The position numbers and the translations under genes were made by a program. A model generated the notes under the pieces. It was not told the origin of the DNA. It made no database searches and saw nothing but the letters and a program-made list of their open reading frames with translations. Source: Natronorubrum sulfidifaciens JCM 14089 (lineage in GTDB: Archaea; Halobacteriota; Halobacteria; Halobacteriales; Natrialbaceae). From it: a stretch of DNA of 41,802 bases. Below are positions 18,685 to 20,253 of the stretch, piece after piece (within the stretch, counting starts at the first letter, position 1; every line of letters begins with the position of its first letter). Where the stretch lies: positions 1 to 41,802 of the forward strand of contig NZ_AOHX01000038.1 in assembly GCF_000337735.1 (NCBI RefSeq), given 5' to 3'.

Positions 18685-20253
18685 ATGAGCACAAACAGTC
18701 GTCGGCGAGGAAGCGATGGACCGATCCCGAGGCGGGAGCTGCTCGCCGCGGCTGGTGCCCTTGGACTGGTGAGTCTAAGCGGGTGTGTCGACGATATCCA
18801 GGGTCGGGTCGAGGACGAAGCAGCCGGAAGACTCGTCTCGATGACAGCGGCAAGCCCGTCGTTTTTCTACGCCGGTGGGAGCCACCGCACCGGTGAGCGC
18901 CAGCACGCGGAGACGAGCTACACACAGGAGTCCATCCCTATCGTCGCCAGCGGCGAACTCGAGGGAGTCTCCAGAACGGTTGAACTCGAGGGTATCCACA
19001 CGGACTCGACGGCGAAAGCCCAGGATTACAACAGCGTCCGGTCGAACAAACGTCGGAGCGAGGTCGATTTCGGCGACGACGGCGACGACCTCGACGAGGA
19101 CACGCTCGACCGACTCTACGAGTACCTCGACGACGAGCCGACGGTCTCCCAGCGGTTCGTCGTCGTGGTGCCGGACGCGAGCGTGACCGGCCACGAGCAG
19201 TCACTCGCGGACGCCATCACGCCGGAGATACTGCTCGAGCAACTCGCTGCTGAGCCATCCCGGCTCGATGGCGAGGGAAGCGTGTACGCGTGGGGACGGG
19301 CCAAGGCGGGAACCGAAACCGGGAATCTGTACTGCTGGGGAGACAATCACAGCAGAGCCGCCGATTCGGGTGGCGACAACGAGATCCGCTGTCGGACGAC
19401 ACACCTCGCCATCGATACCGACGGCAGCAGCCGGGGGATCGCCGTCGAACGTATGGGTGAAGGGGTCGCCGTCTGCACCGTTCCCGGTGACGAGGGGGAA
19501 CCATCGTGGCGGTTCGTCCCGGACGATCTCGATGACGACGACGGCGACGGGGTCCCGACGCGCCTCGAGAGCTGGGGCGAGGAGACGAGCGTCGGTGAGA
19601 CCACGATGAGCTCCTGTCTCGTCGGTGCAGTTACGGTCCAGCCGCCGGGGTGTCCGTGCCCGATGCCAGCACTGTTTCACGCCCGGCGGTTCCGTCACGA
19701 CGACCAGTTGCTTTACGTCGGCGGCTGGATCATCGACGACGCGCCACTGTACGAACACAGTGTGACGATGCTGGTCGCCGACGGCCCGAACGATATCGTC
19801 GATGTCGAACACGGCGACGACTTCGCGGCAATGCGACGGGCGGCGGAGTCAGGATTCACTCGCGACCGAGGCCGGTTCGGTTCGGTCTGCTACGACGGCG
19901 AGTTCAACCGCGAATCGCTCGCGTACCTGCCGCCGGCCTTCCACGAGGGAGACGGGCCACAGCGTCTCGCGTCGATCAGTAAACGCTCCGCGCGCACTGG
20001 GCGGAACCCACAGACAGGAAAGGAAATTCAGGGAACCGACGACGACGAGTACCACCACTACGGGGATCGGCTGCGATTTCCACTCGCCGACGGTGATGGT
20101 GAGGGAGAAGCCATGCGCGGTCTGGTCGGCGCACTTGACTGTCCAATCGTTCGTGTCGATCCGGGAGAGTCCTGTCACAACGGCTGTTGTTGCCCCTCGA
20201 GGGACTGTGAGTGTAACTGGCTGCCGGCGATGAACGGCCAGTCGCCACGGTGA
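18685..20253 (+). CDS. Cys-rich Tat lipoprotein of unknown function
   Basis: A 522-residue exported protein with no family I can name. Twin arginines at 16-17 ([17 protein letters not shown]) lead into a lipobox LSGC with Cys34, so it is a Tat-exported lipoprotein anchored on the outer face of the membrane. The mature chain is acidic and has many cysteines for a haloarchaeal protein: CRTTH, a PPGCPCPMP segment and a tail motif [14 protein letters not shown] with six Cys between 497 and 510. These could hold disulfides or a metal cluster. The middle has long acidic runs ([20 protein letters not shown]), the latter resembling calcium-binding Asp loops. Initiation from a strong Shine-Dalgarno suggests regulated, leadered expression. 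Confidence 0.72.
   Translation: [522 protein letters not shown]

Follow-up and report, generated by a model that had tools for sequence, protein, structure and literature searches.

A haloarchaeal Tat lipoprotein family with a conserved scaffold and short peptides resembling bacterial HU and EF-Tu

Proteins are usually described as being remodelled through entire domains, through repeats or by sequence that arises de novo. The Rickettsia palindromic elements are in-frame foreign peptides in host proteins, and the integrated decoys of plant immune receptors are pieces of a target which are carried by the receptor. For Haloarchaea, composite genes with bacterial components have been detected by pairwise similarity and domains, as far as the accessible part of the source describes them (PMC5992828). 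The gene presented here lies in a stretch of 41,802 nucleotides from Natronorubrum sulfidifaciens JCM 14089 (contig NZ_AOHX01000038.1, positions 1 to 41,802), which is called the window throughout. It belongs to a family in which sub-domain fragments of highly conserved bacterial proteins are present in archaeal surface proteins, and several of these fragments recur in unrelated bacterial exported proteins. This mosaic composition, a scaffold together with short foreign-looking peptides, is well supported. In the literature searched, we recognised no description of the motif strings, of an exported archaeal HU protein or of this peptide composition.

The open reading frame at window positions 18,685 to 20,253 on the forward strand translates into 522 amino acids followed by a stop codon, with no internal stop, and has relatives in other haloarchaea. 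An alternative GTG start upstream at 18,661 would extend the product to 530 amino acids. Residues 1–34 (18,685 to 18,786, forward strand) comprise a twin-arginine signal peptide with the lipobox LSGC; a Tat lipoprotein signal was already proposed for this 522-residue protein in an earlier note on the same DNA. The arginine pair at residues 16 and 17, the hydrophobic stretch and the lipobox cysteine at residue 34 are those of a haloarchaeal Tat lipoprotein signal, and RR16–17, G33 and C34 are invariant across an alignment of 30 sequences. No Tat-signal model of the Pfam and NCBIfam scans fired on the window protein. Judged by its signal, the protein is predicted to be lipid-anchored outside the cell membrane. 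Asp-rich loops, which had been pointed out as well, are present in the sequence. Furthermore, the many cysteines mentioned earlier amount to 15 (residues 34, 217, 236, 264, 311, 323, 325, 402, 486, 497, 501, 502, 503, 508 and 510), and this richness extends to the family, where the median is 10.5 cysteines per member.

No Pfam or NCBIfam model scored above its curated cut-off for the window protein, and at these cut-offs the earlier view that it matches no known family holds. The best sub-threshold Pfam matches are RCC1_2 (20.6 bits, cut-off 22) and Bac_DNA_binding (16.6 bits, cut-off 22.4), and the NCBIfam model for HU-beta reached 22.4 bits with a cut-off of 157. An EF-Tu domain found no match in the window protein in Pfam or NCBIfam, EF-Tu pieces being limited to the relatives. 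The presence of any of these three domains, HU, RCC1 or EF-Tu, in complete form was rejected for the window protein, since all were below the cut-offs.

Matches to the window protein at E ≤ 1e-3 are present in 102 of the 391 haloarchaeal genomes, and family members at E ≤ 1e-15 in 73 of the 391 (a hand count from the table); those matches between the two thresholds that were inspected are HU arms or signal peptides. A named scan yielded 43 loci, 41 haloarchaeal and two bacterial, including Natronorubrum bangense (90%) and N. texcoconense (78%). The set of 54 proteins referred to below consists of 53 loci and the window protein, 17 duplicate loci having been dropped beforehand. In the alignments, the scaffold is visible as conserved blocks (ELEGW, YEYLDGEP, LPDA, TP, WG, QPPGCPxPMPALF, GGWxIDD and ALDAPVLHL) with variable stretches between them. 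The RSN module, residues 112–121 (19,018 to 19,047, forward strand), contains R119, S120 and N121, which are invariant in the family, and it is found verbatim in Balneolaceae proteins. Across 194 haloarchaeal genomes, this module is restricted to loci of the lipoprotein family. Silent cassettes in the own genome were rejected, as the search of the window genome with the protein gave one true copy only, the three other matches being of signal-peptide size with E-values of 0.011 or worse. A viral origin was rejected too, because IMG/VR contained no relative of the haloarchaeal family, of the Balneolaceae protein or of the Lutibacter protein described below, and the RSN motif turned up in none of the phage records.

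A conserved operon was not detected, no neighbour family being widely shared across the loci. In the window, the next gene downstream (20,478 to 20,978) encodes a probable exported protein, of which the part from 20,556 to 20,975 is without a Pfam match, and the neighbouring genes at 21,147 to 21,917 and 23,026 to 24,093 (reverse strand) gave no Pfam match at E-values of up to 0.01. On a plasmid of Halomontanus rarus (L122, 9,900 to 13,827), the family gene is followed by genes for a phosphopantetheine-binding protein, a ketoacyl synthase, a holo-ACP synthase, a malonyltransferase and FabG, a small set resembling fatty acid synthesis.

Structurally, the window protein (pLDDT 65.4, pTM 0.72) and the shorter relative L102 (pLDDT 65.1, pTM 0.72) were modelled with AlphaFold2, and both models display a beta-rich core. 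Foldseek alone returned nothing at E ≤ 1e-3, and the same holds for viral structure models at this threshold. In a second structural ranking, the top places for either model were taken by PsbP, Mog1, DcrB, LpqN, Apa, Tsi3 and EagT6/SciW, with a best Z-score of 5.3 for the window protein and 6.2 for L102; the leading rows belong nearly all to the PsbP/Mog1 class. A PsbP/Mog1-like core is graded as probable only, since Z-scores below 8, as all of these are, may reflect merely a common arrangement. The first half of the predicted core would cover approximately residues 55–190 (18,847 to 19,254), with the same fold class obtained from L102, and is interrupted by the RSN module. The predicted second half, approximately residues 245–375 (19,417 to 19,809), contains a conserved block with GGWIIDD and is delimited by the alignment, the model and the structure comparison. 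The last putative core strands lie within residues 476–492 (20,110 to 20,160; model strands 478–483 and 488–492), with the ALDAPVLHL block in the relatives; all three segments are on the forward strand. In both models, the core is well predicted and the pLDDT drops below 50 in most module stretches (residues 121–134, 190–238, 441–446, 449–452 and 496–511 of the window protein). The modules are thus predicted by the models to sit in loops or tails, and the low pLDDT may also stem from a shallow alignment.

The first of these modules to be considered is the HU arm tip, residues 430–449 (19,972 to 20,031, forward strand), which corresponds to positions 51–70 of the 90 positions of the NCBIfam HU-beta model (E 1.3e-4) and is also matched by Pfam PF00216 and, in the PDB, by HU-alpha (1mul, E 0.012). 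Over 21–23 amino acids it is 78–95% identical to haloarchaeal HU proteins, and the arm-tip pattern RxGRNPxTGxxI is intact at residues 437–448. An intact arm tip would fit a protein binding nucleic acids at the surface, in which this tip, the RKRPGR motif and, in most relatives, the HU C-terminal peptide hold extracellular DNA in the context of biofilm, uptake or gene transfer. An RKRPGR-like motif is indeed present in 26 of the 54 members according to a rough regular-expression count, and some haloarchaea harbor exported tandem HU proteins (L035–L059), all eight of those listed having a twin-arginine signal and then two HU domains. However, the whole HU/IHF domain PF00216 is not reached in the window protein (16.6 bits, cut-off 22.4), which contains 20 of the 90 positions, and the SISKRSAR part of its arm was modelled as a helix and not as a hairpin. 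Moreover, the EF-Tu and CGPGVW peptides of the family are ill-suited to such a role, and nothing else in the window genome matches HU at E-values of up to 10. DNA binding as the function of this family appears unlikely to us.

Among 292 haloarchaeal genomes, PF00216 scores above its cut-off in 27, two of which do so through members of the lipoprotein family. The HU string GRNPQTGK was found in 31 places in 28 of these 292 genomes, four of them in the lipoprotein family and 27 in HU proteins. The arm has an eroded second half in two relatives, L006 and L007, so the exact HU-arm sequence is not required in every lineage.

The window protein further contains an RCC1-like pair, VYAWG and LYCWGDN, within residues 197–222 (19,273 to 19,350, forward strand; pLDDT below 50). 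Here, the 13 residues 210–222 resemble an RCC1 repeat (PF13540/PF00415) with an E-value of 3.8e-4 for RCC1_2, which is below the cut-off (20.6 bits, cut-off 22). VYCWG is the RCC1-like peptide of the family. When 42 members were scanned singly, NCBIfam revealed EF-Tu in three (best E 4.1e-11) and HU-beta in eight (best E 1.5e-7), and Pfam, among the 25 of 35 families listed, RCC1_2 in 22 (best E 1.3e-5) and PF00216 in six. In L105 from Halorubrum saccharovorum, EF-Tu-like stretches are located at residues 116–151, 433–459 and 621–659, with a weak one at 348–372, and they are not in the order of EF-Tu; a rescoring gave an E-value of 4.9e-11 with three stretches. A DNA pattern for the EF-Tu core MVMPGDN matched in six of the 391 haloarchaeal genomes, each time inside this lipoprotein family (6/6). 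Likeness to Hcp, gp19, kinase and MopE was spotted by eye and dropped as too weak (gp19 E 0.27; kinase in the PDB E 0.27; Hcp without HMM match; MopE with a Pfam E-value of 0.011 among the 25 of 35 families listed).

The position of these pieces differs between members. The HU arm lies in a helical insert in L069, L089, L090, L097–L100, L104 and L027 and ahead of the last strands in the window protein, L065, L066, L068, L070, L079, L006–L008 and L014. The EF-Tu piece occupies two sites, one preceding the YEYL block and the other preceding SPTLVCPV, and in L125 and L127 a piece of EF-Tu domain 2 is split around a strand that is flanked by HU pieces in other members.

At the C-terminus, the window protein carries a Cys cluster, residues 497–510 (20,173 to 20,214, forward strand). 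The six cysteines within 14 residues reported in the earlier note were recovered, and its suggestion of a metal-binding or redox protein was built on them. Every close orthologue seen retains the tail (L065, 78% identity; L066, 90%; L006, 66%; L007, 67%), which is therefore no chance feature, and the pattern CHN.CCCPS.DC.CN occurs in five of the 54 distinct relatives, which form one clade. Absence of the tail from all orthologues, which the note had named as evidence against its reading, was thus not observed. Other C-terminal Cys clusters are present in L067, L069 and L027. The cysteines are probably disulphide-bonded or metal-bound, and their retention in 5/5 close members seen would suit the metal or redox reading. 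On the contrary, most of the family is without the tail, which has no relative in the PDB (best E 0.64) and is unstructured in the AlphaFold2 model with a pLDDT below 50 at residues 496–511. Since most relatives hold an HU-type peptide in that place, KFK(A/T)GAELS at the protein end in 36 of the 54 distinct members, the Cys tail represents one option among several for the C-terminal module and does not form the protein core. From the earlier interpretation, the export, the predicted lipid anchor and the lack of a known family stand, whereas the tail as the centre of the protein does not, other C-termini being present in most relatives. A metal-binding or redox function of the protein is quite unlikely, and the tail was set aside as the main story on account of its narrow occurrence, the missing PDB relative and the lack of structure.

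The HU C-terminal peptide has a mean identity of 93% between members, compared to 38% for the whole proteins, with a third-position identity of 0.52. For the HU-type peptides overall, identities between members are 92–100% and third positions 0.44–0.52, values which are biased upward because the instances were collected with letter-fixing patterns; the count of 36/54 for KFK(A/T)GAELS is unaffected. Codon identity between the family and haloarchaeal HU genes is close to the expectation from codon usage (0.34/0.33, 0.45/0.46 and 0.45/0.44). Strict peptide identity, combined with codons that are no closer than codon usage predicts, argues that selection acts on the peptide itself and that the letters, not the DNA, are kept over a long time.

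Such strict constraint would also be expected if the peptides served as integrated decoys or in immunity. Here, the Mog1-type core would show pieces of the inner targets of toxins or effectors, EF-Tu and HU, and trap the attacker at the surface. EF-Tu is targeted by toxins. The peptides derive from conserved housekeeping proteins, and the fold class includes Tsi3, which is an immunity protein, and EagT6/SciW, which are chaperones of effectors. Nevertheless, neither a toxin partner nor a defence neighbourhood was seen and no neighbour is widely shared, which makes this the least probable of the explanations considered.

With respect to mobility, L103 (Haloglomus) and L105 (Halorubrum) are 98.7% identical over 2225 bp with unlike flanks (about 6,948 to 9,170), which is a recent transfer of a single gene between genera. 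Inverted repeats around the family gene are present in three of 41 loci tested, one further locus being too short. Together with a run of 30 identical nucleotides between a Balneolaceae gene (G711) and Halorubrum L085, these observations would be compatible with in-frame DNA pieces that move or drift and are of no use to the host, i.e., recombination accidents in a tolerant surface protein. However, the reading frame of the source is retained, the peptide letters are conserved while third positions vary, and the window gene has no flanking inverted repeat above control. Pieces of this kind, free of any host function, are therefore very unlikely to account for the family. As a separate observation, the inverted repeat in L098 (7,793 to 7,809 and 10,091 to 10,107) has the core CTGTTGAAATCCT or a close variant, as is the case in L099 and L071, and resembles the ends of insertion sequences.

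The peptides are not confined to haloarchaea. In Lutibacter flavus (L107, 7,851 to 8,240), a secreted protein of 129 amino acids contains an HU N-terminal stretch, an HU arm, two RKRPG motifs and DYNSSRSNK, with a match to HU-alpha at 2.6e-7. An exported Balneolaceae protein (L106) contains a 10-residue family peptide twice and ends with the C-terminal peptide SSFSISKRSKIIRE. The RSN pattern matched in eight of 247 genomes of the class of Lutibacter, with Lutibacter the only real case among those read (of the other seven Bacteroidia matches, five were read, and in two the matched letters contain in-frame stops). In the class of the Balneolaceae metagenome-assembled genome, it matched in six of 165, of which five are real, three genomes having 3–7 clustered copies; G695 was judged on the matched letters alone. 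The bacterial module proteins, of up to 997 amino acids, presumably start with a signal peptide and an outer-membrane barrel, followed by the modules. In the Balneolaceae protein L221 (6,407 to 9,400, reverse strand), which is exported, five RCC1-like snippets stand in a row (RCC1_2, 2.6e-7, above the cut-off), and SISKRSAR occurs three times.

Quantitatively, each bacterial protein (eight frames) has 16–104 exact 6-mers in common with the 54 haloarchaeal proteins, compared to means of 0.09–2.0 and a maximum of 9 in the shuffled control and to 0–3 in 19 DUF6517 lipoproteins used as a further control. Peptides of 10 to 16 residues are common verbatim to the haloarchaeal family and the large exported Balneolaceae proteins. 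One of them is RGIDKKDIRRG, an exact string on both sides, which we take to resemble EF-Tu domain 2; further shared runs are also exact on both sides, one of them without its outer letters. The identical run of G711 and L085 mentioned above covers ten codons of the CGPGVW peptide (30/30 nucleotides), which is one exception to the old age of the shared peptides. The bacterial proteins examined yielded neither the HU C-terminal peptide nor the EF-Tu peptide MVMPGDN, so the two peptide sets overlap only partly; the CCFD peptide was not found there either.

This sharing may also be read as ordinary structural homology, in which an undescribed set of domains was inherited or transferred as a whole between bacteria and haloarchaea and the likeness to HU and EF-Tu carries no role in recognition. 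One helical module, CxxxVCxxVRxxADxR, is a true homologue in Balneolaceae and haloarchaeal proteins (hhalign probability 97.4%, E 1.4e-11, 69 columns) and its pattern matches 18 of the 53 haloarchaeal proteins. Furthermore, the sharing is partly collinear, residues 349–560 of G717 aligning with residues 187–393 of L100 (E 1.4e-10 within a small set). What speaks against it is that the HU and EF-Tu pieces occupy differing sites in the members and substitute for each other at the C-terminus, and we consider plain homology rather improbable.

Our preferred explanation, held tentatively and with somewhat less than even confidence, is that the gene encodes an exported, lipid-anchored scaffold displaying exchangeable peptides, most likely for recognition. 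Recognition is preferred because the peptide letters are kept while their location and carrier protein change; the function in display and recognition is what we infer from this. Mechanistically, the protein would reside on the external side of the membrane with its peptides held outward. These peptides would be gained, lost and swapped in the course of evolution, and the exact peptide would be recognised by something in the brine community, e.g., a partner cell, a phage, a protease, secreted HU or DNA. In one clade, the Cys cluster would then stand in for the HU C-terminal peptide of most relatives.

A bolder version of the display scaffold, which we regard as possible but doubtful, would be a peptide lexicon, with several items cut from bacterial EF-Tu and HU, that circulates across two domains of life, among haloarchaeal lipoproteins and the exported proteins of Balneolaceae and Lutibacter, with selection maintaining the exact peptide. 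It might serve as a surface code or as mimicry for recognition, decoy or bait. If confirmed, this would represent a new route to building surface proteins and would suggest that archaea and bacteria communicate with or mimic each other at the level of peptides.

In comparison with known systems, the haloarchaeal Tat lipoproteins of DUF6517 (PF20127) have the same type of signal, and a block LPDA...TPE aligns. In hhalign, this match has an E-value of 9.6e-10 with the signal peptide and of 0.04, at a probability of 1.3%, without it, and the window protein gave no PF20127 row up to E 10. DUF6517 was rejected as a plain relative, since the match vanishes without the signal peptide.

The PsbP/Mog1/DcrB/LpqN/Tsi3/EagT6 proteins provide most leading structural rows for two members, the best reaching 3.9 Å over 136 residues at the Z-score of 6.2. 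In contrast to this class, the family has large insertions, Z-scores remain below 8 and no sequence relation is shown. With HU/IHF proteins (DNABII) the window protein shares the arm tip, and 36 of the 54 members share the C-terminal peptide, but the family is without an HU fold in one piece, its peptides are split around scaffold strands and its signal would place it, by a lipid anchor, outside the cell. The Tat-exported tandem HU proteins of haloarchaea are likewise exported and show the same peptide letters (e.g., at the C-terminus of L041). They differ in having two HU domains and no lipobox scaffold, and they are missing from the window genome.

Unlike the Rickettsia palindromic elements, the window gene has no inverted repeat above control, and unlike the plant integrated decoys, the window protein has no known immune partner. 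Compared to the composite genes of Haloarchaea, as far as these are covered in the accessible part of that source (PMC5992828), the pieces described here are 10–30 residues long and are combined within one surface protein.
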